Shown one piece after another: positions 38,663 to 59,016 of a stretch of 60,965 nucleotides of DNA. Location of the stretch: assembly GCA_016188575.1 (NCBI GenBank), contig JACPHN010000196.1, forward strand, positions 1-60,965, written 5' to 3'. The translations under genes were made by a program, and so were the position numbers. The notes under the pieces are model-generated. The model saw only the letters and a list, made by a program, of their open reading frames with translations, ran no database searches and was not told the origin of the DNA. Each line of letters opens with the position of its first letter. Positions within the stretch are counted from its first letter, which is position 1. The stretch is from Candidatus Schekmanbacteria bacterium (GTDB taxonomy: Bacteria; CSSED10-310; JACPHN01).

Positions 38663-38817
38663 AACGGGGCGCCGGGTCAGCGGCAGCACCCGGAGGCAGT
38701 TTACTACCGCAGGGCGCTGTCCGCTGCACCCGGTTGTTCTGCAGCGCGGATCAGCGCGGCGGAACAGCCGGGCCTTGCCCGGCGCCCCGTTCTTCCGACG
38801 CGCAGCGTCGGAAGAAC
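38663..38817 (-). mobile_element. ORF-less integron cassette with long structured attC, copy A (155 bp)
   Basis: One of five nearly identical units (others at 42325, 43966, 45570 and 58806). On the minus strand it starts GTTCTTCCGACGC, folds back on GCGTCGGAAGAAC, and ends in an attC whose outer arms AACGGGGCGCCGGG / CCCGGCGCCCCGTT are perfectly complementary. Inner arms CAGCGGCAGC / GTCCGCTGCA and a GGTAGTTTACTACC-type hairpin (here GGCAGTTTACTACC) fill the centre. It has no coding capacity. This copy borders the truncated res gene and is the edge of the array. Confidence 0.8.
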
Positions 38818-42324: not shown

Positions 42325-42479
42325 AACGGGGCGCCGGGTCAGCGGCAGCGCTCGGAGGTAGTCTACTACCGCAGGGCGCTGTCCGCTGCAGGCGGTTATT
42401 CTGGCGCGCGGATCAGCGCGGCGGAACAACTGGGCCTTGCCCGGCGCCCCGTTCTTCCGACGCGCAGCGTCGGAAGAAC
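42325..42479 (-). mobile_element. ORF-less integron cassette with long structured attC, copy B (155 bp)
   Basis: Same architecture as copy A with few substitutions. The R' end at 42327-42321 (GTTAGCC) starts the restriction-modification cassette on the minus strand. The 5' end (GTTCTTCC) joins the attC at 42477-42521. Confidence 0.8.
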
Positions 42480-43965: not shown

Positions 43966-44120
43966 AACGGGGCGCCGGGTCAGCGGCAGCACCCGGAGGT
44001 AGTTTACTACCGCAGAGCGCTGTCCGCTGCACCCGGTTGTGCTGCCGCGCGGATCAGCGCGGCGGAACAGCCGGGCCTTGCCCGGCGCCCCGTTCTTCCG
44101 ACGCGCAGCGTCGGAAGAAC
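43966..44120 (-). mobile_element. ORF-less integron cassette with long structured attC, copy C (155 bp)
   Basis: Contains the perfect hairpin GGTAGTTTACTACC and outer arms AACGGGGCGCC / GGCGCCCCGTT. Its R' opens the secreted-protein cassette (GTTCTCTTGCTGG). Confidence 0.8.
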
Positions 44121-45490: not shown

Positions 45491-45569
45491 TTTAGACTCC
45501 TCTCGGTGGATGACTCTGCGACGCGAACGGCTTCGCACCTGCGATCGGGAGGTCTCGGCCGGTCGGCAT

Positions 45570-45722
45570 AACGGGCGCCGGGTCAGCGGCAGCGCCCGGA
45601 GGTAGTTTACTACCGCAGGGCGATGTCCGCTGCACCCGGTTGTTCTGCAGCGCGAATCAGCGCGGCGGAACAACCGGGTCTTGCCCGGCGCCCGTTCTTC
45701 CGACGCGCAGCGTCGGAAGAAC
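45570..45722 (-). mobile_element. ORF-less integron cassette with long structured attC, copy D (153 bp)
   Basis: Two bp shorter than copies A-C: GGGG becomes GGG in one outer arm and CCCC becomes CCC in the other, so pairing is kept. R' (GTTATGC) is the start of the nuclease-like cassette. Confidence 0.8.
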
Positions 45723-46302: not shown

Positions 46303-46727
46303 TTACTCGCGGGGAAGGAAGTCGATATGGACGTGCTCGTCGTGGCGGACCCAGGCCCGAGTCCTCATGAAACTGGGTTGGATCGGGCCGAGCATGGCGC
46401 CGTGCACGGTCTTGAGCAGTAGAGGGATGTACGGCGGATAGAGGATGACCCTCTGAATCTTGAGCCGGTGCTTCTCGATCTGGACCCTCAGTTCGTGAAG
46501 TAGCTCCGCGAGCGCGTCGAAGTCGATAGTCAGTGGTCCAGCATGTCCAGCTTCATCGAGCTCCAGGCCATATCCAAACAGATCCCATGGCCAGGTGGGG
46601 ACGTTGACCGAGGTGCCGTCCTGGTCACGGAGCGGGACAAAGATGTCGACGCTCAGCCCATTCTGATGAGTCTTGTGGCGCCAGAAGGTTCCACCGCGTC
46701 GGAGGCCGGTCTCCCCGACGATGAACA
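46303..46727 (-). pseudogene. Truncated M74/MepA-like murein endopeptidase
   Basis: The surviving C-terminal 140 residues have HKTHQNGLSVDIFVPLRD (His/Asp zinc ligands) and WVRHDEHVHIDF (HxxHxH), as in penicillin-insensitive murein endopeptidases. At 46727 the reading frame enters the inverted repeat of an ISKra4 remnant, so the N-terminus and signal peptide are lost. An open frame continues through the IS end to 46890, but those residues are not part of the original protein. Confidence 0.7.
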
Positions 46728-46947
46728 GGGTGTCCATCCGGAATGTGGGACTTAGCCGTTTTGACCCATTGGCACAGTATTGGCAGGCGTCCATCGGGGT
46801 GGTCTTGCCTTCTCGTCCACGGTAAATGGGCGTTGGAATCGGGGCAGGAGCTCCCGGAAGGCGACCTCGAATCGATTCGACTGGTTCCATGAGCGCAGCG
46901 TCAGGATTGCCTGGCCGCCATTCCCGAGCGCTTCAGGCGCTGCGTGA
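46728..46947 (-). mobile_element. ISKra4-type remnant (3' end of a second element)
   Basis: Begins with GGGTGTCCATCCGGAATGTG (46728-46747), a diverged version of the intact element's inverted repeat. It contains the transposase C-terminal segment GGQAILTLRSWNQSNRFE in reverse frame. It is cut off where the intact element starts at 46948. Confidence 0.75.
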
Positions 46948-48602
46948 GGGTGTCCGTCCGGAATACCGGACTCATCTGTTTGGACAAATTGGTGCGACGT
47001 TGGGGGGCGTCCATCGGGGTGGTTTGGCCTTCGCGTCAATAGTGACGGGTTGTCGAAATCGACGTAGAACCTGTTAGAGGGCGTGCTCGAAGCGATTGGA
47101 CTGGTTCCATGAGCGCAGCGTCAGAATTGCCTGTCCTCCGGGGATACGCCAGCTCATTCCCGAGCGCTTCAGGCGCTGGGTGACCAGAGTCTTGCAGGCC
47201 GCTTCCTGCACGCCGCTGCCGATCGGGAGATGCCGCGCACGATAGGCAGCGTAGCACATCTGATGGCGATGCTTCTCAAAGTAGCCGAGGTTTTCTTCGA
47301 TGATCTCGCGGTTCTTGGCAGAGCTGTGGTCGCGTCGATAGCGCAGTGCGCGAATGAGGTCGGCCACGCCATTGCGGTCTGCAATGAGCTTGTCGTGCCA
47401 CAAAGCGATGTCAGCTTTGGCGATCGTCTCGCTGCTCGCATAAGCGCGCAGTGCCTCGGCGGCATGTTCCATGGCGTGAAAGAAGTCGATGATCTCCTCA
47501 GTGGATTCGATCCCGAGCGTGGTCACAGTCTCGCGGATGATTCGCGAGTTCTCCTCGGCGCCATCGGCCACGGCGACTACCACCGCCTGCGGATAGCGTT
47601 CCCGGATTGCCGCGAGCTCCGCTTCGAGCTGGGCATGCAAGGTCACCTTGTGAGATTCGGGCATGCGCGCCAAACGGATGGTGTGAAGTCGTTTGCCTTT
47701 CCCATCGTACAGCGAAATGGTCCCGCAACCCGCCTCCTTGAACCGCTGCGTGGGCGCTGCCTTTCCAGCCCCCACCTGCTCCGTCTTCGCGTCCTTGAGC
47801 GGTGTCATGACGCCATCCAGCGAGACGGCAATGCAGGCTACGCCGGACACCTCAGGCAGTCTCTCCACGGCTCTGATTTCCGCTTCGATGTCCTGACGGT
47901 TCTCCTCGGCGACCTCGTTGAGCAGCTTGGGAAGTCGGTCCAAGCTGCTCGCCGACGCGGTCATCCCGGCAGCAGCGACGAGCAGCCGATGCGCTTCGGC
48001 AGGCGTCGTTGCCTGGACAAATAGGGCGGCGATGCTCGCCGCCCGAGGCGTCCAGAAGTCGCTTACCAAACCGATACGCATCTTGAGCGGTGCTACCAGC
48101 TTTCCCCCATGGCCCCCGCGTTCTTCATAAAGAGCGTAGGCAATCTGCGTCGGGCCGAAGGTGGACATGATTTCAGCCGAGCCATCCTCGCGCCGCCGGC
48201 GGAATGCCTTCTCGTCGACGACGATACCATTCGCTCGCACGTCGAGCTGGCCGATTAGCGCCGCGGTAATCTCGCTGCCGCAGCGATTCAGAAAATCCCG
48301 GAGACGCACCTCGATGCCGGCGAAATCCTCTGCGATCTCGTCCGGTGCACCACTCATTTCCTGCTCGACATACACCGATAAGCACCGAAAGGCTTCGCTC
48401 GACTCGAGCTTGAGGTGGGCATCGGAGATGGACTCGGGACGCGAATTCTGCAACAATGTCACGGGGCTGTCCTCCTCAATGGGTGTCAACTACTACTTCA
48501 TCGTACCGGGTTGACACCGTGGACGGTCCCATTGTGCTTCGTCATGGCGTCCGCTCTGAATTCCGCCAAGTTGGCAAAGTCCGGTATTCCGGACGGACAC
48601 CC
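46948..48602 (-). mobile_element. ISKra4-family insertion sequence with perfect 25-bp inverted repeats
   Basis: The left end 46948-46972 and right end 48578-48602 are exact reverse complements (start GGGTGTCCGTCCGGAATACC). The element is 1.65 kb and carries one transposase gene. It is inserted next to or inside the older remnant, and 21 bp from the attC at 48623. No clear target duplication was seen. Confidence 0.85.
47074..48462 (-). CDS. ISKra4-family transposase
   Basis: 462 residues from GTG 48462 (GAGGAGG 8 nt upstream). The DDE triad can be placed at VSLDGVMTPL, VADGAEEN and GSGVQEAACKTLV. The C-terminal GGQAILTLRSWNQSNRFE is characteristic of this family and is repeated in the neighbouring remnant. 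Inverted repeats and gene are intact, so the element may be active. Confidence 0.88.
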   Translation of the reverse strand: MTLLQNSRPESISDAHLKLESSEAFRCLSVYVEQEMSGAPDEIAEDFAGIEVRLRDFLNRCGSEITAALIGQLDVRANGIVVDEKAFRRRREDGSAEIMSTFGPTQIAYALYEERGGHGGKLVAPLKMRIGLVSDFWTPRAASIAALFVQATTPAEAHRLLVAAAGMTASASSLDRLPKLLNEVAEENRQDIEAEIRAVERLPEVSGVACIAVSLDGVMTPLKDAKTEQVGAGKAAPTQRFKEAGCGTISLYDGKGKRLHTIRLARMPESHKVTLHAQLEAELAAIRERYPQAVVVAVADGAEENSRIIRETVTTLGIESTEEIIDFFHAMEHAAEALRAYASSETIAKADIALWHDKLIADRNGVADLIRALRYRRDHSSAKNREIIEENLGYFEKHRHQMCYAAYRARHLPIGSGVQEAACKTLVTQRLKRSGMSWRIPGGQAILTLRSWNQSNRFEHAL

Positions 48603-48622
48603 CCATCGCGCCGCGTCCTTCG

Positions 48623-48686
48623 AACGGGGCGCCGGTTCAGCGGCGGGCCGCGCAGCGGACCGTCCGCTGCAAGCGGTTGTTCGGCA
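48623..48686 (-). other. attC site behind the PIN/antitoxin pair
   Basis: Minus strand: R'' TGCCGAAC (48686-48679), inner arms CTTGCAGCGGACGG / CCGCCGCTGAACCGG and R' CCCCGTTCG. It lies 17 nt after the antitoxin stop. The R'' is also complementary to the 5' end of the cas cassette at 58801-58808. Confidence 0.75.
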
Positions 48687-48703
48687 GCGGACGACCGCAG
48701 CAC

Positions 48704-48880
48704 TCACGATGCCTTCCGATCTGCCTTGGCCTTACGCGGAGGAAGCCGCACCGCTTTCCGACCGCTTTGTGCCTGCCTGGCCTTCGCAGCCTCGGCAATC
48801 TTCCGGATGTCGTTTCCGGATGCACTCGACAGCGCCTCGCGGATAGCGTGAATCTCTTCGATGATCGGATCAGGTTCCAT
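48704..48880 (-). CDS. Small antitoxin-like protein
   Basis: 58 residues from ATG 48880 (AAGGGAG 7 nt upstream): MEPDPIIEEIHAIREALSSA, then DIRKIAEAAKARQAQSG and a basic tail LPPRKAKADRKAS. The N-terminal half resembles short antitoxins paired with PIN toxins (EEIHAIREAL helix). It starts 5 nt after the PIN gene stop, so the usual antitoxin-first order is reversed. It was found by reading the minus strand directly below the PIN gene. Confidence 0.7.
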   Translation of the reverse strand: MEPDPIIEEIHAIREALSSASGNDIRKIAEAAKARQAQSGRKAVRLPPRKAKADRKAS

Positions 48881-48885
48881 CGCAG

Positions 48886-49356
48886 TTACTCCCTTGGCAA
48901 CTCAACCGGTGTGCAGATGATTGGCGGCTCGACGCCCGCGAAGCGGCAGAGATCTTCGATTCTGCGACGCAATGAGGCATTGGCGATGTGTTTGCAATTC
49001 CAGGTCAGTAGGTAGTCCATGCCGTGGACCGCAGCCATCGCAACGTGAAGAGCATCAACTCGCGCCTTCGGCGGCAGAGCGCCGCCCGCAACAAGGCTTT
49101 CGGCCAGCAGGATCGCTTCCTCCGTAACTTCCAGGAGCATGGCCTCCTGGAGTGTAGCGAGACGGCTGGCGGCTGCGCGCTCGTCTCCGGCTGCGGCTTC
49201 GTCGAGAACGAACTGTGACGTGAACAGGTCGAAGCTCTCGCGCGTTGCCCACCAATCACGGGTCACTTGCTGGTGCGCGGCACGGATGAGGTCGTGGCTT
49301 GGCAAGGCGGTCAGGTAGCTGACGATCGATGTCTCGATGTACGTTTTAGGGTTCAT
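48886..49356 (-). CDS. PIN-domain ribonuclease toxin (VapC-like)
   Basis: About 156 residues from ATG 49356 (GTG 49362 is an alternative). PIN-fold motifs: KTYIETSIVSYLTA at the N-terminus (Glu in place of the first Asp), TSQFVLDEAAAGD, ARVDALHVAMAAVHGMDYLL and TWNCKHIANA. The metal-site acidic residues are present except for the conservative first substitution. It pairs with the downstream antitoxin-like gene. Toxin/antitoxin pairs are typical stabilising cargo of integron arrays. Confidence 0.82.
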   Translation of the reverse strand: MNPKTYIETSIVSYLTALPSHDLIRAAHQQVTRDWWATRESFDLFTSQFVLDEAAAGDERAAASRLATLQEAMLLEVTEEAILLAESLVAGGALPPKARVDALHVAMAAVHGMDYLLTWNCKHIANASLRRRIEDLCRFAGVEPPIICTPVELPRE

Positions 49357-49386
49357 GGGCACTCATCTATCCTACCTTGAGAGTCG

Positions 49387-49447
49387 GCCTCACGCCTCGG
49401 TTCAGCGGCGGCGCGCAGCGCCGTCCGCTGCATGCTGTTGTTCGGCA
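49387..49447 (-). other. attC site of the type III CRISPR-Cas cassette, with a mutated core
   Basis: Minus strand: R'' TGCCGAAC (49447-49440), inner arms GCATGCAGCGGACGGCGC / GCCGCCGCTGAACCGAG, then GGCGTGAGGC where GGCGTTAGGC is expected. The recombination triplet GTT is GTG. R'' is the exact reverse complement of GTTCGGCA at the 5' end of the cas cassette (58808-58801). Confidence 0.8.
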
Positions 49448-49539
49448 GCCATCCTTCGGGGCCATGCTTCCTTCTCATTCTCGATTGCAGATGATCAAGC
49501 TGTGTCCGTAGACATGATCCATGACGCTTGTTTCCCGAG

Positions 49540-50997
49540 TCAGAGGTTCAACAGGCGGGTCTTGACCGTCGCGACAAGCTTGTTGCAGAGTGCCCACGGC
49601 TGCGACACTCGAAGCTCGCGCAGCACTTCCTGGACGAGGGGCTGGGCCAAGAACGTGTCGCCGGTGGACCACAGCGCAGCCTCCTGCATGCGACGACGGG
49701 CATCGTCCATGAGCTCCGGCGTCGGCTCGTTGTGTGCCACATCGTTGCGCAGCTCGCGGATGTCGCTTCCAAGCGCATTGTCCAGCTTCGTCAGGGCGTC
49801 CGACTCGAGGAAGTACTTCGCGATTCTGGCCGCAGGTCCCCCGTCACCGTCGAAGACCCAGTACCAGTCGACCCCATCGACTTGGTCCTTGATCTCGAAC
49901 GGCCGCTTGCGATCGTCATCGGACCCGTCGTTCTTGCGAATCAACTTGTCGCCTGCAGGCGCGTCGCCCCTCCGGAGCCTGAAATGGCGGCGTCGCTTGG
50001 GATCGGGCGAGCGCTCGAAGTGCTCGAGCAGGCGATCCCACAGGGCCGCCTCGAAGAACGCCACTGTGCCGTGAACGGCCCTGGGGATGTCTCCCGCGCG
50101 GAGCGCGAGCTCGACGCGCAACGCCGCGCGGACGGCCATGCGCTGGTGAGTCAGGACGGAGAAGTCGCACTCGGTGGGAATTGGGAGTGACGAGGCAAAG
50201 CAGGCAAGCCACTCGATGACCTGCGTCCATCGGCGCTCGACTTCGTCGGCATGGAGCGGCTCGGCGACCGCCCACGCACCGAGCAGATTGCCTCTGGCGA
50301 TGAGCTCGAGCGCTCTGCGACGAGCCTGAAACGAAGCGAGTGGCTCAGGCTTGGACATGCGTGCGACGGCACGATCCGCGGTCGGCGGGCTCGCTCTCGT
50401 CCCGTCGGCCACCTCGAGCGCCTCGACAGGAACCGATGCGTGCAGCCGAACGATCTCTTCGACCAAGTTGGTAACGACAGGGAAGCCTCCGGTCGCCGCA
50501 ACCAAGATACGCGATGGCATCACCGCCTCGATGGCGTCGCGCACCGCGCCGTCGAGCCGATGCACGACCTCGCGACGAATCACGGCGTCGTGCGGCTCTT
50601 CGCGGTCTTCGAGACGCTCCCGGTCACGCAAGTACGCATGGCGACGAACCGTTCGGACCCCCTTGGCCTTCAGGCGGGCTTCCAGCACAGTGCCCGCGAA
50701 GTGCGGATCGCCGGGAGCGGCGCCCGGTGCACGGCGCGTCTCGAGCACCAGCGCCGCATCAGGGAGCACCTCGCGCAGGACCGCGTCCAGCTTGGGCGTG
50801 CAGAGGTTCAGCTCTCCGTCGACGAGTATCTCGATGGAACGCTCTTTCTGTACGGGCGTGTCGTCAAGGATGTACCCGCGCCGCTCGATCTCGAAATGCA
50901 GCGCCGCGCAGCGATCCCTGCTCAGCTCCCGACGAACACCATCGACGACGAGCTGCACGTCGCTCTGGCCCGCTGTCAGCACGAGCAAGGTCGTCAT
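49540..50997 (-). CDS. CARF-HEPN ribonuclease, Csm6/Csx1-like
   Basis: 485 residues from ATG 50997 (ATGA overlap with the RAMP gene). The N-terminal Rossmann-like CARF domain runs MTTLLVLTAGQSDVQLVVDG to about residue 200, with ILVAATGGFPVVTNLVEEIV as the ligand loop region. The C-terminal domain has the HEPN RxxxxH motif in ELRNDVAHNEPT (R417, H422). In type III systems such proteins are switched on by cyclic oligoadenylate made by Cas10 and then degrade RNA. The Cas10-like gene of the operon keeps its GGDD site, so this is the probable second-messenger receptor. Confidence 0.82.
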   Translation of the reverse strand: MTTLLVLTAGQSDVQLVVDGVRRELSRDRCAALHFEIERRGYILDDTPVQKERSIEILVDGELNLCTPKLDAVLREVLPDAALVLETRRAPGAAPGDPHFAGTVLEARLKAKGVRTVRRHAYLRDRERLEDREEPHDAVIRREVVHRLDGAVRDAIEAVMPSRILVAATGGFPVVTNLVEEIVRLHASVPVEALEVADGTRASPPTADRAVARMSKPEPLASFQARRRALELIARGNLLGAWAVAEPLHADEVERRWTQVIEWLACFASSLPIPTECDFSVLTHQRMAVRAALRVELALRAGDIPRAVHGTVAFFEAALWDRLLEHFERSPDPKRRRHFRLRRGDAPAGDKLIRKNDGSDDDRKRPFEIKDQVDGVDWYWVFDGDGGPAARIAKYFLESDALTKLDNALGSDIRELRNDVAHNEPTPELMDDARRRMQEAALWSTGDTFLAQPLVQEVLRELRVSQPWALCNKLVATVKTRLLNL

Positions 50998-53270
50998 CGA
51001 GTGCCGCCGTTCTTGTAGCGGCGGTTGCGCGAGTGCTCGGCGCGCAACGTGGTGTGGAACGTATAGATGTTCTCGTTGCCGTCGCGGTCCCTGGCCCTCG
51101 GGTAGTCGGCCGCGTCCGGATGCCTGTGGCGATGTACGGCGAGCCACTCATCCTGCGTCGAGGTCTTCTGGTGGTTCTTCTTCACCCACGTGTCGAGCTC
51201 GGCTTCGGGCTTCAGCGTCGGAGTGCCGCCAACGTCATCGAGCAGCAGGAGCGCCTTGGCGTTGATGCGCACGGTGCCCAAGCCCAGCGGGCGCGCGTAG
51301 CCGAGCTTCGAGCAGTAGCCGTCGGCGTGCGTACCGCCGAGCACCGTTCGGAACTGGTGAGGACAGAGCGCAACCAGGATAGCCGCGAGTTCGGTGGCGT
51401 CGAGGTCGCGGAAGCGCACCGTGAAGCGGAACTTGCGCTGCGGCTTCGACGCCTCCATCGCGAGGGTGCTGCGGTCGTTGGCGCGGTTGGTGAGCGAATC
51501 GTCCTTCCACGGCTCGCCGGCGTACGCGTCTTTGCGATCGAGGTAGAACTTGCGACCGGCTAGCTCGCCAGGTTCGTCGTAGCCCGCGGCGTCGCCGTAG
51601 GTCACGAGCGTCGCCTTGTCAGAAGGGCGCGCTCTCGGATGATGAGGCTGCTTTAGGTAGTGCTCCAGGGCGCTCGGCCGAGGCATGCCCAGCTCCTTGA
51701 GGAACGTCGGCGGCAGGAAGCGCTGCTCGTCGGTGTCGTTGTCTCCGACCACCTCGAGACCCGCGTTCACCGAGACGCGGCCCATGAGCTGCGCATGATC
51801 GTCCTTTCCGATGCCTGCGCTGCCGTCGTTGTCCCCGGTGTAACCGAAGAGCCGTCGCACGGAAGACAGCCCCTTCGGTGCGCCGTCGGCATCCTGTGCG
51901 CGCTCGTCGTCGAGCGGGAACAGCCCGTGCCGCTCGAGCTTCGGAGCGTCAGCGTCCCTGCGAACCGAGTCGGTGTACGCCCAGCGGTAGTAGTAGTGCC
52001 AGCCGAGCGAGACAATGCACTTCTTGTCCGTGTCCCACTCGACCCAGACGAGATCGCCGGGCTGGAAGACCTCGCTCTTGGCCGCATCAAGGATGCGCTT
52101 GCGCGCGTCGTCGCCAACTTGCTTCCCGTCAGGATGCCGCTCGCTGAAGTGGCCGTGCTTGTCGTCGATGAGGTGACGGAGCGTTGAGAGGTATCCGTCC
52201 TGGGCCACCTGCGGCACATCAGCGCCCTCAATCTGCGTGTCGCGAAGAACCTTCAGTGACGAATGCAACGTCCGCTTCGAGTTGAGGTTCTGGCCAGCAC
52301 CTTGGCCCCCTCGATATGCGGCTCCGCCGTTCTCGTCGAAGCGAAAGTCGAACTTGTTTGCCCTCTTGTTGTACTCGAGGTCGGCGGGAAACAGCTCCAG
52401 CCGCTTCGGCACGCGCACCTGGTGTTCGCCGAACGCTCGTGTCCCGACGCCGTTCGCAGGAACGCGCGCGATTCGTGCAACCAGCTTCGGATTGGGCTGG
52501 TTCGGAAAGAGCGCGTTCGGCCGATACGAGTATGAGCGCTCGGCCACACGCTCCATCGGCGCTCCGAGGAGCGCGCCCAGTTCGTGGCGCAAGAGGCCCT
52601 TCAGCGAGTCGCCAGGAATGATGACGGGGCGCTTCCCCCACGGCGGGCGCAGCGGGCAGAGCACCGACTTCTTGGTGGCGAGTTGAACAACGCCGTCGAT
52701 GTTGGCCGGGAGCGGCCAGTCGCTCTCGGCGTTGCCCACCTGCCCCCGCTCCCAGCCGACCAGGAGCGGGGTCAGCGTCTCGATCTCGAGGCGGATCTCG
52801 CCGGAGAGCCTACCAGCGCTGCTCGTGCCGTCGTGCCACACAGGCGACGCGCTCGTCAGCTCGGTGGGCAGGGCAACGAAGCCGTAGGGCTTGCCAGGGA
52901 GAGGCTGGGCATTCGTCGTCGCCGCAGGTGCAGGGCGGCTTTGCTGGTGGCCACCACGCTGAGGCGAGCCGCCCTGCCGAGGATGCTGCGTGTTCGTCGA
53001 TCTCGGTGCTGCATTCGCGGCGATGGTCGTGTCGCCACTCGGAACCTCCTCGAGCCCGGCTCCGCCGAGCTTGGCGCGCACCTTCTCGATGTGCGCCTCC
53101 TTGGAGGCGCAGACGATGAGCTCGCTGGCGACGACGTGGCTGCTCACGATGTCGAGATGTGGCATCCCGAGCTGATTGCTCTTCAGCTTGTTGATAGCGC
53201 CCTGGTCGCGAGGCTTGCCGTCGAGCGTGCGAACGCGGATGCGGTGAGGTTTGTCGGGCTTGCCGGGCAT
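50994..53270 (-). CDS. Type III CRISPR RAMP protein (TIGR03986-like)
   Basis: 758 residues from ATG 53270, which overlaps the stop of the preceding gene (TGATG). After an N-terminal 150-residue region with a Gln/Pro/Gly-rich linker, the RAMP part starts at YGFVALPTELTSASPVWHDG, RLSGEIRLEIETLTPLLVGW, followed by PVIIPGDSLKGLLRHELGAL. A second RAMP-like half lies near the C-terminus (FRFTVRFRDLDATELAAIL; LGGTHADGYCSKLGYARPLG, glycine-rich). The pattern fits TIGR03986-type CRISPR RAMP proteins. It should form part of the crRNA-binding backbone. The family name is from memory of motifs, not a search. Confidence 0.75.
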   Translation of the reverse strand: MPGKPDKPHRIRVRTLDGKPRDQGAINKLKSNQLGMPHLDIVSSHVVASELIVCASKEAHIEKVRAKLGGAGLEEVPSGDTTIAANAAPRSTNTQHPRQGGSPQRGGHQQSRPAPAATTNAQPLPGKPYGFVALPTELTSASPVWHDGTSSAGRLSGEIRLEIETLTPLLVGWERGQVGNAESDWPLPANIDGVVQLATKKSVLCPLRPPWGKRPVIIPGDSLKGLLRHELGALLGAPMERVAERSYSYRPNALFPNQPNPKLVARIARVPANGVGTRAFGEHQVRVPKRLELFPADLEYNKRANKFDFRFDENGGAAYRGGQGAGQNLNSKRTLHSSLKVLRDTQIEGADVPQVAQDGYLSTLRHLIDDKHGHFSERHPDGKQVGDDARKRILDAAKSEVFQPGDLVWVEWDTDKKCIVSLGWHYYYRWAYTDSVRRDADAPKLERHGLFPLDDERAQDADGAPKGLSSVRRLFGYTGDNDGSAGIGKDDHAQLMGRVSVNAGLEVVGDNDTDEQRFLPPTFLKELGMPRPSALEHYLKQPHHPRARPSDKATLVTYGDAAGYDEPGELAGRKFYLDRKDAYAGEPWKDDSLTNRANDRSTLAMEASKPQRKFRFTVRFRDLDATELAAILVALCPHQFRTVLGGTHADGYCSKLGYARPLGLGTVRINAKALLLLDDVGGTPTLKPEAELDTWVKKNHQKTSTQDEWLAVHRHRHPDAADYPRARDRDGNENIYTFHTTLRAEHSRNRRYKNGGTR

Positions 53271-55162
53271 CAGCGCAGCTCCTTGGTAAGGGTGAAGCCG
53301 AGAAGCTCGCCGCCGAGGTGCCACTCGCGCAGGAGCACGTTGCCCTGGCCGGTGTTGGCTGACGAGAAGCGCTGGAAGCCGTGGAGCCGCGCAGGTGTGT
53401 GAACGACGGCAGTCTGCTTCGCGCCCTCGTCGCTCGATGCGACCTCCTCGATCAGCACGAAGCGCGCACCGCTCGATGTACGCACCGCGCGCCAGACCGC
53501 ACACTTGGCGTAGAATGCGACCTCGTCGACCTTGAGCGTATCTTCCTCAGGCCACTCGCGGCCGAAGGTCGCCGGAGGGGTGGTCAGGCCGAGATCAATG
53601 GTCGGATCGCACCACCACGCAACGAGTCCTTCGCCAAATGCTGCCTTCGCGAGCTTCGCGGCCTCGCCCAGCGTCAGTGTGGCGCAGTCGAGCGCGCCGT
53701 GCCTCGTCCGCACCCACGCCGCGGCAGCGCTGGGGCGTTCGATGAAGGTGCGCTTCGCGTGAGAACCAGTCGGCGTCGGAGGTTCAGGCTCCTCCGGCGG
53801 CGACCAGTCCCTCGTCTTCTTCACGTCGTCGACAGCCCACGGCTTCGCCTGCCATCTGCCCCAGCCAGCGCCGCGGGTCTTGTGCCCACCGATCGGCAGA
53901 TGCCCCAGCACGCCGAGCGCGACCTGACGATCGATGAGCGCGACGAGCGGCTCGACCTCCTCGGGCGTGGCTGCCTCGATGACGACGCGAACCGGGAACA
54001 CACCCTGGAGCACGCGCACGGCGTCGCGCATCGCGCTGCCGTACGAGCCAGCAGAGAACTCGTCCTCCGCGTGCATGTGCAGCTTTGCTGCCGCCCAGTC
54101 CTTCTCCGCGCGCGCGTCGCGGATGAGGATGCGGCTGCTCTTGTTGACCGTGCCGAATGCCTTGCCTGCGACATCATCCGGGCCGACGTCGCCTTGCACG
54201 AGGTGCGGGTCTTTCACCTCGCGCCCCGCAGCGCGCTCGGCGCGAGAGAAGGCATGGCGCAGCGGGCCGCGTACGCTCGCACCGGGAAGCAGCGGTCTCC
54301 CGCCTTCCATCAGGAGCGCGCGGTCGGTGCTCAGCGCGTCGGGTGTGCTGGCATTGCTCGCCCATGCAGGCTTGACCCATACCCCGTCACCCGTCGGTTG
54401 CACCGCGCGTTCGGTGTCGTGCGGACCGACGGCGAACATATCGAGGCCCCACGCGGCCTCGTTGGGCTCGGGCTTGTACTCGCCGAATGAGACGTTCACA
54501 TCGAGCGTGCGGAAGCACCACGAGCGCGTGGGCTCCACGACGGGCACGGCAGTGAGCGCGGTCGGCACCTCTACACGTCCCGATGCGATCCAGCGTTCGT
54601 AGCTCGCCTGATCGAAGCGGTACGCCGTTGGGTCTTCAAGGTGGCACCACCCAAGCCCGCGCGCCGCTCCGCCGCCGAGCCAGCAGCGTCCCTGCGCCCA
54701 GTGCTGCGCGAGCACGTAGCCGAGGATGCCCTCGGCCTCGCGACCTTCGGCCTCGCTCGTGACGTGCGACCAGTCGACGCGGAAGCTGAGCTGCCACTTC
54801 GTGCCCGCGGGGATGACCTCGCGGTCGTAGAGCACGCCGCCCGCGCGCGCCCCGGTCTTGTGGCGGATGCCAACGCCAGCCCGAACACGCGGAACGCCGG
54901 GCGCAGTCGCGTCCGCGAACTCCCATGCCGAGCGGCGCAGCGCGCCGTGCTTGATGTCGTCGCTGACGGCGCGCGGCAGCGGGTCGAAGAAGCGCTTCGC
55001 CATCGCGACGGCTGCGCCCTTGAGGCCGCGCCCCACGAGCGTCGGCACGCCATCGACGAGCGCGAAGGGCTGATCGGCGCTGCTCTCGCGATCGAGGCCC
55101 GATACCGAGAGGGCCGAATCCTGCACCAGGGTTGCGGTGAACAGAGTCAGCTTCGTAGTCAT
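53270..55162 (-). CDS. Double-RAMP (Cas7/Csm3-like) CRISPR protein
   Basis: 630 residues from ATG 55162 (ATGA overlap; AAGGGGG upstream). Two RAMP domains are recognisable by their N-terminal strand and Gly-rich helix: LVQDSALSVSGLDR with VPTLVGRGLKGAAVAMAKRF, and RALLMEGGRPLLPGASVRGP with LRHAFSRAERAAG. Gly-rich C-terminal loops LGGGAARGLGW and IGGHKTRGAGWGRW follow the two halves. Asp residues for target RNA cleavage (Csm3-type) may be present in the loop regions but cannot be assigned by eye. It is likely a fused pair of backbone subunits. Confidence 0.75.
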   Translation of the reverse strand: MTTKLTLFTATLVQDSALSVSGLDRESSADQPFALVDGVPTLVGRGLKGAAVAMAKRFFDPLPRAVSDDIKHGALRRSAWEFADATAPGVPRVRAGVGIRHKTGARAGGVLYDREVIPAGTKWQLSFRVDWSHVTSEAEGREAEGILGYVLAQHWAQGRCWLGGGAARGLGWCHLEDPTAYRFDQASYERWIASGRVEVPTALTAVPVVEPTRSWCFRTLDVNVSFGEYKPEPNEAAWGLDMFAVGPHDTERAVQPTGDGVWVKPAWASNASTPDALSTDRALLMEGGRPLLPGASVRGPLRHAFSRAERAAGREVKDPHLVQGDVGPDDVAGKAFGTVNKSSRILIRDARAEKDWAAAKLHMHAEDEFSAGSYGSAMRDAVRVLQGVFPVRVVIEAATPEEVEPLVALIDRQVALGVLGHLPIGGHKTRGAGWGRWQAKPWAVDDVKKTRDWSPPEEPEPPTPTGSHAKRTFIERPSAAAAWVRTRHGALDCATLTLGEAAKLAKAAFGEGLVAWWCDPTIDLGLTTPPATFGREWPEEDTLKVDEVAFYAKCAVWRAVRTSSGARFVLIEEVASSDEGAKQTAVVHTPARLHGFQRFSSANTGQGNVLLREWHLGGELLGFTLTKELR

Positions 55163-57210
55163 TGAGCCCCCTTGCGCAGAGCGGCGCGCAGCCAACGCAT
55201 GAAGAGCCGCGCGTGAAGAGCCCGCTGCTTGGGCTGGATCGCCCTGTCGTTGAGCTTGTCCAGGATCGCCTTCGCGTCCTTGTGCTTCCAGCTCTTGGCG
55301 CCCGCCGTCGTGGGGTTGAGGCGACCATCAATCGCGTTCGTATCGTTGCGTTCGAGATCGGCGACGAGGTCGAGCCACTGCGACAGGCTCGGCTTGCGAT
55401 CGCTGCCACCGCCGAGCTTTGCCAGTGAGTTGTGCGCCTTGAACCACTCCTGCGTCGTCGCGGCGATGGCCTCTTCGTCGACGTCGGCGGCAGGCGCCCG
55501 TGCGCTGCTCGCGCGAGCCTCTCCCGTCACGCCAGGAAGCACGGCGTCGAGTCGGAAGCGCCCGAAGCCCTCGTGCGTGCGCTCGCCGAGCCACTGCTCC
55601 TTCGCCACCCGCTCCGCGAGCTTCGTGATGCCTGCGCCCGAGACCTCGAAGACCGAGCCGCGCCGAATTGCGGCCGCGGGCATGCGCCACAGCCGCGAGG
55701 TGCCGTTGAAGCCGTGGACCATAACGGCGTCCTGCATCGTCTTGAGGGCGCCGTGCTCGTCCTTCACGATGGCGATGTCTGCGGTACCGGCGAGCTCGTG
55801 GAGGGCCGCCTCGTCGAGCGTCGTGCGCCAGCGAAGATACTCGTCGCGAACAAGCAGATCGGACGTCAGCGTGAGCAGCGCCTTCTCCGTCGCTTTCGCG
55901 ACCGAAGCAGCGCCAGACCACGCGAGGTGCACCACCTCGACCGGTGCGCCCGCACGCCCGACACGCAGCCAGCGGCGCCCTTCAAGGACGGGACCGAGCT
56001 TGTTCGCGAGCGCCTTCAGGTCGTCGGACGCGCCGTGAAGCTCGGCGAGGAAGTGCGTCTCCTCGACGATCTGCTCGACGGCGAAGAGCGACGCATCGAC
56101 CTGCTTCGGATCGGGCCGGCCGTTACGCAGACGTACGCGGCGCGCGGGGCGGAACGTCGTCCACGGCTCGCTCGCCGCCGCGCGGTAGACGAAGAGGTCG
56201 TCATCGGGGCGCTTGAGCTTCTCTGCCGCGCTCCACGCATCACGTCGATGATTCGGCGCCTTCGTCTGCGCCCACCACGGCACCTCGCCCGCTGAGCCCG
56301 TCGGCTTCTCGCTCTGGAGCGTGAGCGGCGCGGGCAGCACCTCTACGCTCTCGAGCATCGTCGGTGCCTGCGGCAGTGGCAGGGCGTCGCTCACCGAGAC
56401 GCGCCCCGAGGTCAGCACCGAAGCCGTGTCGCGATCGCCCTCGGCAATGAGCCACGCGGCGACCGCCCCAAGCAGCGTGCGCCCCGGCACGAAGGCGAGG
56501 CTCGGGATCAGGTTGTCGGGTGTCGCTGTCGCCGTGATGCAGAGCGGGTCGCGGTTCTTGAGCAAGAGCACGAGGCGGCCGGTCGGCGTCCCCAGCTTGT
56601 GCGTCGTGGCCGAGACCTCGGCGAGCGAGAGCTTCACCCGGCCCGCGCCCGTCGAGCGTCCGCCGCCGAGCGCGTCCACCTCCTGCACGAGCCGCTCCAG
56701 CGCTGGGAGCTCGCTCGCGGGCAGCTCGATCTCGCCCACGAGCTTGGTCCCGCTCGGCACGTACTCGATGACGCGCAGCGTGTCGTCCTTCGGCGCGCGG
56801 TTGTCGAACGCCTCGCGCGCCGTCGAGCGCCAGATGTGGCTCTCGGGGTTGCCCTTCTCGTACAGCGAGGTGAACACGGCGCGCTGGCGGTCGTTGCGCG
56901 CATAGTCGCCGCCCGCGCGGCCGAAAAACGCCTCGGCCTCCTTGTCTCCACGAAGCCTGCGGGCGGCGTCGCGCAATACCCCCTCGACGTGCGAGGCCCA
57001 GATGACGGGACGCCCACAGCGGTCGCGCGCAATGAGCGCGTCGATGCCGCCGCCTCCCGAGCCCGAGCCGAGGTGCGCGTCGGAGAGGAACTCTGCCGTC
57101 AGCGCGCGACGCACCCAGCCGTCGCCATCGCTTGCTGTTTCGCCGTCGGAACGGCCTGGCTCTGGCGCAGCCTGTCGCTTCGGGAAGAAGGCCTGGTGCT
57201 TCTTAGACAT
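55159..57210 (-). CDS. Multidomain RAMP protein with small-subunit-like C-terminal helical region
   Basis: 683 residues from ATG 57210 (AAGGAGG 6 nt upstream; 8-nt overlap with the Cas10-like gene). First RAMP domain: RRALTAEFLSDAHLGSGSGG, WASHVEGVLRDAARRLRG and ALGGGRSTGAGRVKLSL. Second RAMP domain: LVLLLKNRDPLCITATATPD, FVPGRTLLGAVAAWL and ERTHEGFGRFRLD. The last 130 residues are helical (WFKAHNSLAKLGGG, LHARLFMRWLRAALRKG) and could replace a separate Cas11 subunit. The closest idea is a Csx10-like Cas5/Cas7 fusion; exact homology is open. Confidence 0.7.
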   Translation of the reverse strand: MSKKHQAFFPKRQAAPEPGRSDGETASDGDGWVRRALTAEFLSDAHLGSGSGGGGIDALIARDRCGRPVIWASHVEGVLRDAARRLRGDKEAEAFFGRAGGDYARNDRQRAVFTSLYEKGNPESHIWRSTAREAFDNRAPKDDTLRVIEYVPSGTKLVGEIELPASELPALERLVQEVDALGGGRSTGAGRVKLSLAEVSATTHKLGTPTGRLVLLLKNRDPLCITATATPDNLIPSLAFVPGRTLLGAVAAWLIAEGDRDTASVLTSGRVSVSDALPLPQAPTMLESVEVLPAPLTLQSEKPTGSAGEVPWWAQTKAPNHRRDAWSAAEKLKRPDDDLFVYRAAASEPWTTFRPARRVRLRNGRPDPKQVDASLFAVEQIVEETHFLAELHGASDDLKALANKLGPVLEGRRWLRVGRAGAPVEVVHLAWSGAASVAKATEKALLTLTSDLLVRDEYLRWRTTLDEAALHELAGTADIAIVKDEHGALKTMQDAVMVHGFNGTSRLWRMPAAAIRRGSVFEVSGAGITKLAERVAKEQWLGERTHEGFGRFRLDAVLPGVTGEARASSARAPAADVDEEAIAATTQEWFKAHNSLAKLGGGSDRKPSLSQWLDLVADLERNDTNAIDGRLNPTTAGAKSWKHKDAKAILDKLNDRAIQPKQRALHARLFMRWLRAALRKGAQ

Positions 57211-58705
57211 GGGCGGCCTCCTTCTCGGCGTGCGTGCCTTCGACGCTGCGCCCGAGCCGTGCGATCTCGGCGATCTCGACGAGATCGAGCAGCGCGGTGA
57301 GCCACGCTCCGTTGCTCGAGGTGCGTCGCCACGGCTTCTCGACGCCCGCTTCTTCGAGCGCGCTCTTTGACTCTTTCGACAGCTCGGCGAACGCGAGCTC
57401 CGAGAGAGCGCGCCCGTGCGGGAGCTGATCCACGAGATAGCGAAGCTGCGACCGTGGCGCGCGTGTGAGCTGCCCGGCACCACGCACCAGCCCCTGCAAC
57501 GAGTCGAGTCCTTGGCCGAGGACGTCGACGGGCCTCTGCGAGAGCACGCGCGCGTCGTTGCCATTGCCGCGCAGCCAGTCGCGCCGGCGGACCTCCTCGG
57601 GATCGTCGACCCACGCGGTGCTGTAAACGGCCCAATCGACGACCGAGCGGCTCTTCTCGCCCGCGTCCTTGAAGGCACGGAAGCGCCGCTTCGCGGAGCT
57701 GGCGAGCTGTTCGGCCACCTCGTGAAGCCGATGAATCGGGATGGTGTGCTTGGCGAACACCACGCCCACGCCGAGCGTCAGCTTGAAGCCGTCGTCATCA
57801 GTCTGGAGAGACGCGAGCGCCTCGCACAGCGTGACGACGAAGGGCAGCGCGATCTCAGCGCGGCACACGAGCAAGAGGTCGTCCCCACCCAGCATCAGTG
57901 GGATGAGCGGCGCCTGTTCGTTGTCCGGGCAGTGCGCGTCGATAGCCTTCTGCACCGCGCGCCGCAGGAGCACGCGGCTCTGATGGAAGAACCTCGCGCG
58001 CTCGCTGTCCGTCTTGCCTGCGCCGCTGCCGACGCCGTTGCCGTCGGCGTGGATGAGCGCGAGGTAGCCATTGCCGACCAGCTCCTTTAGCTCCTGCGGG
58101 CGCCCCAGCTTCTTGAGCTTCGTAGTCTCGACCAGCAGACTGGCGAGGTCCGCCGCCGTGCCGTCTTCGGTGCGCTTCGCCGCCTCGTGCCGGTGTGCAA
58201 CGTCGAGCGATACGGCGGGGCGCTCGTCACCTTGCTCGACGATCGCCGACGCCAGCCCGCGCCCCGTCCACTCGCAGGGAGCGAGCACCGGCAGCTCCGT
58301 GGACAAGTGCACCTCGCTCTTGGCCAGCGGCGCGCCGTCGATCGAGATGCGGAAGCGGAGCCCCGGCGCGCTGTTCCGCAGGAGCTGCGCGGCTGCGTCA
58401 GCGAAGGCGCCGGCGCCGCTCGCGAATTGGGCCTCGAAGTGACCGCCGTCGCGCGCGAGGATGCCTTCCTTCGCGTCGGCCGTGGGATCGTCGTGCGCCT
58501 TCAGCGGATCGTTCGGATCGGCAGCGGGGTACGTCTCCACGCTCGGTGCGAGCGTCCAAGGGCGTCCAGTCTCCCGCGCGAGCCTCGGGAGAGCGACTCG
58601 CACCGTCTCGCCGAGGAGCGCGTTGGCGCCGACCATCGCGCGGAGGCGTGGAACGGCTAAGAGCCACGTCTGGACCCGCTGGAGCTCGATGTGGACTCTG
58701 GTCAC
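57203..58705 (-). CDS. Cas10-like protein (Cmr2-type palm domain with GGDD, no HD domain)
   Basis: 500 residues from GTG 58705, with GGAGG 6 nt upstream. The N-terminus (VHIELQRVQTWLLAVPRLRA, then MVGANALLGE) resembles the first strand and helix of Cas10/Cmr2 proteins. The palm carries YLALIHADGNGVG (216-226) and the catalytic LGGDDLLLV (272-280). There is no HD nuclease domain, and the protein is shorter than full Cas10 (typically 700-1000). Known biology: the GGDD palm makes cyclic oligoadenylates on target RNA binding. It is first in a five-gene operon in which every junction overlaps. DNase activity is not expected; RNA-guided signalling to the Csm6-like protein is. Confidence 0.82.
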   Translation of the reverse strand: MTRVHIELQRVQTWLLAVPRLRAMVGANALLGETVRVALPRLARETGRPWTLAPSVETYPAADPNDPLKAHDDPTADAKEGILARDGGHFEAQFASGAGAFADAAAQLLRNSAPGLRFRISIDGAPLAKSEVHLSTELPVLAPCEWTGRGLASAIVEQGDERPAVSLDVAHRHEAAKRTEDGTAADLASLLVETTKLKKLGRPQELKELVGNGYLALIHADGNGVGSGAGKTDSERARFFHQSRVLLRRAVQKAIDAHCPDNEQAPLIPLMLGGDDLLLVCRAEIALPFVVTLCEALASLQTDDDGFKLTLGVGVVFAKHTIPIHRLHEVAEQLASSAKRRFRAFKDAGEKSRSVVDWAVYSTAWVDDPEEVRRRDWLRGNGNDARVLSQRPVDVLGQGLDSLQGLVRGAGQLTRAPRSQLRYLVDQLPHGRALSELAFAELSKESKSALEEAGVEKPWRRTSSNGAWLTALLDLVEIAEIARLGRSVEGTHAEKEAAHV

Positions 58706-58805
58706 GTCACGCCTCCGAATTCCGAGAGTCGTCAGCAGACTCTCTCTCTCCGTTCCAACTTGCGAAACAAGCGAGCTTGTGGCTGCGGCCCTCACTGGTC
58801 TGCCG

Positions 58806-58958
58806 AACGGGCGCCGGGTCAGCGGCAGCGCCCGGAGGTAGTTTACTACCGCAGGGCGATGTCCGCTGCACCCGGTTGTTCTGCCGCGCGAATCAGCGCG
58901 GCGGAACAACCGGGTCTTGCCCGGCGCCCGTTCTTCCGACGCGCAGCGTCGGAAGAAC
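58806..58958 (-). mobile_element. ORF-less integron cassette with long structured attC, copy E (153 bp)
   Basis: Nearly identical to copy D at 45570, including the shortened GGG/CCC arms. Its R' (GTTCGGCA) opens the cas cassette. Its 5' end joins the attC at 58956-59011. It lies 101 bp upstream of the cas10-like GTG. Confidence 0.8.
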
Positions 58959-59011
58959 GCTCGGCATCAGCGGCGGCGCGGAGCGCCGTCCGCTGCATGC
59001 CGTTGTTAGAC
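58956..59011 (-). other. attC site of the coiled-coil protein cassette
   Basis: Minus strand: R'' GTCTAAC (59011-59005; a consensus RYYYAAC), inner arms GCATGCAGCGGACGGCGC / GCCGCCGCTGATGC and R' GCGTTC at copy E. The cassette's 5' end should read GTTAGAC; it is not present before 60965, so it is beyond the window or lost. Confidence 0.78.
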
Positions 59012-59016
59012 GGCCT

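Follow-up and report, generated by a model that had tools for sequence, protein, structure and literature searches.

Whether an integron can carry a complete CRISPR (clustered regularly interspaced short palindromic repeats)–Cas effector operon as a single gene cassette is the question raised by a locus in Candidatus Schekmanbacteria bacterium (assembly GCA_016188575.1). The window analyzed here, 60,965 nucleotides in length, is one entire contig (JACPHN010000196.1, C43) of a 9.2-Mb draft genome of 275 contigs that is 93.8% complete. Five minus-strand open reading frames (ORFs) lie head-to-tail between 58705 and 49540, overlapping by a few bases, with integron attC sites on either side. The initial annotation had described these genes as a Cas10-like protein with a GGDD motif, three RAMP proteins and a CARF–HEPN protein set between an upstream cassette junction and a downstream attC, all of which were present, and had proposed that the whole operon was acquired as one cassette. 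That proposal is probably right, and the best explanation of the locus is that a III-Dv-like, array-less operon was captured by the host integron integrase (IntI) as one 9.4-kb cassette. It is favored because attC sites stand at both ends, because the start of the unit matches the R'' arm of its attC over 9 bp as in ordinary cassettes, and because other long gaps between attC sites fail to show such a match. It stops short of full support because the 3' attC is degenerate, the attC of the adjoining PIN toxin–antitoxin unit carries the same R'', and an empty-site relative was not found in the genomes searched.

An Rfam scan at gathering thresholds gave no match, and attC sites were therefore modelled from this genome. 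A covariance model (R1) was constructed from 14 aligned attC-like sites, with the sites flanking the cas operon left out; a first alignment prepared from mixed class 1 attC sites was poor and was not used. Model R1 found class 1 attC sites that had not been used in building it (catB3, 40.5 bits; aadB, 36.2 bits; catB8, 31.8 bits) and sites adjoining both full-length intI genes of the genome, on contigs C140 and C88. Because of these matches, the elements could be assigned as integron attC sites and not as a mere repeat family. When the flanks of the operon were examined with the model, a check suggested in the initial annotation, the site at the 3' end, the two sites upstream and the site after the PIN/antitoxin unit were all recovered (Table 1), along with six or seven further sites in the window, down to 38.6 kb.

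At the 5' end of the unit, a G/TT junction was located in the R' of the attC that comes before it, reading CCC-G/TTCGGCAG at 58808. In an integron cassette, the R'' arm of the attC pairs with the cassette's own 5' end. The start of the cas unit, GTTCGGCAG (58808-58800), and the R'' arm of its 3' attC, CTGCCGAAC (49448-49440), are exact reverse complements; the exact complementarity given in the initial annotation was thus borne out, its length being 9 bp and not 8. Across 23 consecutive attC pairs of this genome, most ordinary cassettes showed an exact match between start and R'' of 7-13 bp from GTT onward, and 11 of the pairs reached at least 8 bp, whereas a match of at least 9 bp was seen in 0.9% of 1390 null pairs taken from different contigs. 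Three other attC gaps longer than 4.5 kb (on C56, C102 and C197; about 6, 9.4 and 4.7 kb) matched over only 3 bp, so a long gap alone does not yield the match. The operon begins 103 nt after the start of the unit, the CARF stop codon lies about 90 nt before R'', and the unit otherwise contains only the operon. Its 9414 bp compare with ~0.5-1.5 kb for validated neighboring cassettes.

Table 1. Positions of the cassette, its genes, the attC sites and neighboring elements in the window
Feature	Position	Strand	Evidence and remarks
Proposed integron cassette	49394..58808	-	From G/TTCGGCAG (58808) to the attC R' (49394); 9414 bp
Cas10, 500 aa	57203..58705	-	PADLOC Cas10 3e-68, Cas10d 2e-31; Pfam Cas10-Cmr2_palm2; PDB best 8s9t_C (type III-Dv Cas10) 9e-7
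Cas7-Cas5-Cas11-like fusion (Cas7-5-11), 683 aa	55159..57210	-	PADLOC Cas5_IIId 3e-22 and Cas7_IIId; NCBIfam Csx10 4e-13; PDB best 8s9t_A Cas7-Cas5-Cas11
Cas7-2x with Csx19-like C-terminal domain (~180 aa), 630 aa	53270..55162	-	PADLOC Cas7_IIId 6e-22 and Csm3; PDB best 8s9t_D Cas7-2x
Cas7-insertion, TIGR03986 RAMP, 758 aa	50994..53270	-	NCBIfam TIGR03986 3.5e-54, over cut-off
CARF-HEPN Csm6-like RNase (predicted), 485 aa	49540..50997	-	PADLOC CARF, Csm6-like 1.6e-166; RNDVAH and TTGG conserved
3' attC of cas cassette	49386..49450	-	R'' CTGCCGAAC; R' = GTGAGGC; model R1 56.0 bits, E 5e-14
attC at 5' junction (mini-cassette end)	58801..58888	-	R' = GTTCGGC; model R1 73.0 bits; hairpin z -5.1
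attC of upstream cassette	58951..59015	-	R'' GTCTAAC; model R1 72.7 bits; hairpin z -4.5
ORF-less mini-cassette GTTCTTCCGACGC...CCCG, ~146 bp	58806..58953	-	Repeat family; start vs R'' 8/9 positions, by eye
PIN-domain toxin (49362-48886) and small antitoxin-like ORF (48880-48704)	48704..49362	-	Pfam PIN 8e-5; ORF read
attC after PIN/antitoxin unit	48618..48689	-	R'' also CTGCCGAAC, R' GTTCGAA; model R1 75.1 bits

Subunit identities were assigned by sequence searches against PADLOC, NCBIfam, Pfam and the PDB. By these searches the operon has the type III-Dv (III-D2) subunit set, namely a predicted Cas10 with a fused Cas7-5-11, Cas7-2x and Cas7-insertion. The Cas10 ORF starts at GTG behind a GGAGG Shine-Dalgarno sequence and carries the GGDD palm motif at residue 273; no N-terminal HD domain was seen in the window Cas10. 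In the CARF protein the HEPN motif RNDVAH lies at residue 417, and across 15 sequences RN-D-[VI]-A-H was invariant apart from V/I at one position, with the CARF TTGG region largely conserved. Cyclic-oligoadenylate signalling and RNA cleavage are predicted from these motifs (GGDD, CARF and HEPN).

In the III-Dv complex of Synechocystis, Csx19 is a separate subunit that is needed for assembly (PMC11026444). In the clade of the window operon, a Csx19-like domain (53270-53815 in the window) was found fused to the C terminus of Cas7-2x throughout. The window-clade protein is ~115 aa longer than that of a Thiodictyon relative (630 vs 515 aa), its C-terminal ~180 residues are kept in 15 genomes, and in the sister clade the corresponding place is taken by a stand-alone Csx19 ORF of ~170 aa. 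Although single-sequence BLASTP of the Cas7-2x C terminus against Csx19 was not significant, a profile of this C terminus aligned with a profile of the stand-alone Csx19 ORFs (hhalign; E 8e-8, prob 94.5), and the domain of one relative matched the PADLOC Csx19 model at 1e-3. Because these profiles align, the operon appears to encode a full III-Dv complex, with Csx19 fused, plus a CARF–HEPN effector.

Among the closest known systems is type III-Dv of Synechocystis PCC 6803 (PDB 8s9t; PMC11026444), which has Cas10, Cas7-Cas5-Cas11, Cas7-2x and Cas7-insertion in the same order together with a Csm6-type CARF accessory protein. Of the four complex subunits of the window, three have 8s9t as their best PDB match. 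The two differ in that the window operon has no cas6, cas1/2 or array at its locus, that csx19 is apparently fused to Cas7-2x instead of being a separate gene, that sequence identity is low, and that the CARF–HEPN gene is the last of the operon. On plasmid pTs485 of Thiodictyon syntrophicum (NZ_CP020372), a III-D locus of the sister clade is collinear over Cas10/RAMP/RAMP/TIGR03986 at 31-36% identity; it differs by its separate Csx19 ORF and by a cas1 alongside, and attC was not found there.

No CRISPR array, cas6 or cas1/adaptation gene was found in the cassette or the window. Elsewhere, the host genome has CRISPR arrays, with repeats at the ends of C158 and C174, a single Cas6, on C264, and matches to Cas1 on five contigs. 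Adaptation genes are absent from many type III effectors, and their absence is not disqualifying.

To place the operon among its relatives, Cas10 was searched for by scanning one genome per species. Twenty loci carried a Cas10 60-79% identical to that of the window, after which identity fell to about 38%. These loci belong to Pseudomonadota, Myxococcota, Planctomycetota, Chloroflexota, Chlorobiota, Cyanobacteriota, Acidobacteriota and Actinomycetota. Phyla are intermingled in the Cas10 tree, one tight group, for instance, consisting of HR30, a Chlorobiota and a cyanobacterium. On this tree, the operon is evidently horizontally mobile across about eight phyla. The five genes were collinear in most relatives with a long enough contig, one locus (L107) lacking a Cas7-2x match; a decayed copy was also seen in a planctomycete (L108), in which Cas10 residues 1-444 run into a CARF fragment and the Cas7 genes are deleted. 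A small CRISPR array was close by in only 2 of the 20 relatives (L093 and L095). Phage or plasmid cargo was considered and has no support, neither CARF nor Cas10 having a match in viral contigs and CARF having none in plasmids.

The surroundings of the relatives are of a different kind. At three loci (L096, L099 and L106) the operon is set inside an Hma helicase–methylase–ATPase operon, with HmaB upstream of it and HmaC downstream, and at three more (L097, L098 and L102) Hma genes lie alongside. At L105 it is placed between Cas3g and Cas8g of a type I-G system, and similarity points to the same placement at L104; near L089, L090, L092 and L093 there are type I-G-like genes, Cas3g-like or other. 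The modules inside Hma (L096, L099 and L106) and type I-G (L104 and L105) operons have the same five genes, a Cas10 66-77% identical and no adaptation genes inside, but are embedded in or between the genes of another defence operon and not between attC sites. In these positions within Hma and type I-G gene sets, the operon looks like a module that plugs into other defence operons. Flanking attC sites, whose recurrence around related cas10-like genes the initial annotation had proposed to test, did not recur, and relatives in unrelated DNA, which it had held to count against a cassette, are what was found. The non-integron surroundings of the relatives show that the operon did not arise in cassette form; they do not show that the window unit is no cassette. 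The operon is a roaming, array-less effector module, of which the integron cassette is one form, so far known only here.

Several observations weigh against capture as a single cassette. In the 3' attC, R' has GTGAGGC in place of GTTRRRY (GTG for GTT), L' and L'' do not pair, and the outer R/L stem is not formed in the fold, unlike those of the other sites. Because this right half (L'/R') is degenerate, the cas cassette may be locked now, or it may be mobile only jointly with the PIN toxin–antitoxin unit as 10.2 kb. The attC of that unit has an R'' identical to that of the cas unit, CTGCCGAAC. GTTCGGC is a favored start in this genome, which brings the effective chance of the 9-bp match to ~3% and not 1 in 4096; given the start sequence of the cas unit, ~1 in 35 unrelated R'' arms match over 9 bp. 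The assembly is a draft with a repeated element at the upstream junction. Model searches gave convincing attC flanks for 0 of the 20 close relatives, and no empty site or empty-site relative was found in the genomes searched. Around 30 distant relatives there was likewise no convincing match, and one weak attC candidate, in Tahibacter (L095:869-934, 16.6 bits), was rejected by eye, as no GTT R' follows. A close relative of the host was sought among 386 related genomes and not found; its phylum is thinly sampled, with seven other genomes among the relatives searched.

The shared R'' bears on the extent of the mobile unit. Of 9 positions compared between the start of the PIN unit, GTGAGGCCG, and the R'' of that unit, only 6 agree, and either this start has decayed or the present unit spans 58808-48625, 10.2 kb, with the cas operon and the PIN toxin–antitoxin pair moving together and the attC at 49386-49450 being a dead internal relic. 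The larger unit would end in an attC (48618-48689) whose R' (GTTCGAA) is intact. It is nevertheless considered unlikely: PIN/antitoxin pairs are classic cassettes in their own right, the 6 of 9 positions could be what is left of an original match, and the attC at 49386-49450 retains R'', L'' and the core hairpin at 56 bits. Entry by another route, with the operon brought into a small cassette or the array by a transposon or by homologous recombination between mini-cassette copies and the flanking attC sites coincidental, would fit both the spread of relatives that lack attC and lie within Hma or type I-G operons and the abundance of mini-cassette repeats in this genome. Such entry should, however, be set against a search of the operon edges in which inverted ends and duplications did not exceed chance, the lack of any leftover cassette gene between the start and the attC, and a start/R'' match like that of true cassettes, and is judged improbable. 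As possible transposon ends, an inverted repeat of 10 bp shared by leader and tail was considered and rejected as being at chance level, relatives showing 6-13 bp.

An artefact of assembly or binning at repeats in a draft, metagenome-style genome has the 275 contigs and the many-copy element at the upstream junction in its favor, as well as the contig end (60840-60965), a multi-copy element that is common to ~20 contig ends and breaks the assembly. It is very unlikely, since the mini-cassette copies differ by several percent, the G+C content fits the host, and the start GTTCGGCAG and R'' CTGCCGAAC still match within one low-copy 9.4-kb stretch. Two full-length IntI (over cut-off) are encoded in the genome, on C140 and C88; the multi-copy repeat at the end of the cas contig prevented its being joined to an integrase contig by end overlap. 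On C140 the order could be read directly as intI, then a first cassette starting with GTTCGGCGGAC, then attC. This integrase (C140:2586-3530, L081) is of inverse orientation, the array lying downstream of the intI 3' end, and has an extra N-terminal region; by eye, the first cassette is a HEAT-repeat gene and the second a BrnT-like toxin–antitoxin pair.

Other elements of the array were also noted. The mini-cassette at the upstream junction follows the attC of the upstream cassette. Nearly identical copies follow most cassettes of the genome (in the window at 58806-58953, 45568-45717, 43968-44115, 42327-42474 and 38665-38817, and on many other contigs), behavior like that of a miniature inverted-repeat transposable element within the integron. 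Beside the PIN cassette, a transposase-like gene (471 aa, named by eye; 47074-48489) interrupts the array, and partial tandem remnants of its 3' end lie at 46727-47139.

Under capture as a single cassette, IntI would recombine the folded bottom strand of attC, and a circle of G/TTCGGCAG-operon-CTGCCGAAC-attC would have been inserted downstream of the mini-cassette attC. By homology, a complex of Cas10, Cas7-5-11, Cas7-2x-Csx19 and Cas7-insertion would load CRISPR RNA (crRNA) supplied in trans by host arrays and the host Cas6, bind complementary phage RNA and cut it via its Cas7 domains. Target binding would then switch on the Cas10 GGDD palm to produce cyclic oligoadenylate, by which the CARF–HEPN RNase would be activated. 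A fuller proposal is that an integron integrase moves the whole multi-subunit CRISPR effector complex in the form of one single-stranded cassette of 9.4-10.2 kb, and that this effector is one of a clade of array-less, portable modules that lodge in any available defence setting (Hma operons, type I-G operons, integron arrays) and use crRNAs in trans; it is given an even chance of being right.

Anti-phage systems as integron cassettes, for the most part small ones, were reported in 2025 (Darracq, Kieffer and Getz, cited in PMC12444791). As described in the open portion of that literature, they are likewise defence genes in attC-bounded cassettes with R''/start complementarity, but are one- or few-gene systems, in contrast to the five genes and 9.4 kb here. 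The initial annotation knew of no CRISPR–Cas effector operon in cassette form, and none was found in the open-access literature; subscription papers were outside that search, so priority is not established. Integron capture of such an operon would be surprising to specialists.

The wider clade, a five-gene module with Cas10 60-79% identical in about eight phyla, may offer a tractable mobile type III effector dependent on crRNAs in trans, and its plug-in behavior is a testable side result. If the cassette reading is true, a class of long cassettes could have been missed by searches that assume short attC-to-attC distances. The size and complexity of integron cargo would be raised ~tenfold over the local norm, adaptive immunity would be linked to integron shuffling, and integrons would move, beyond single genes, whole effector complexes of adaptive immunity.

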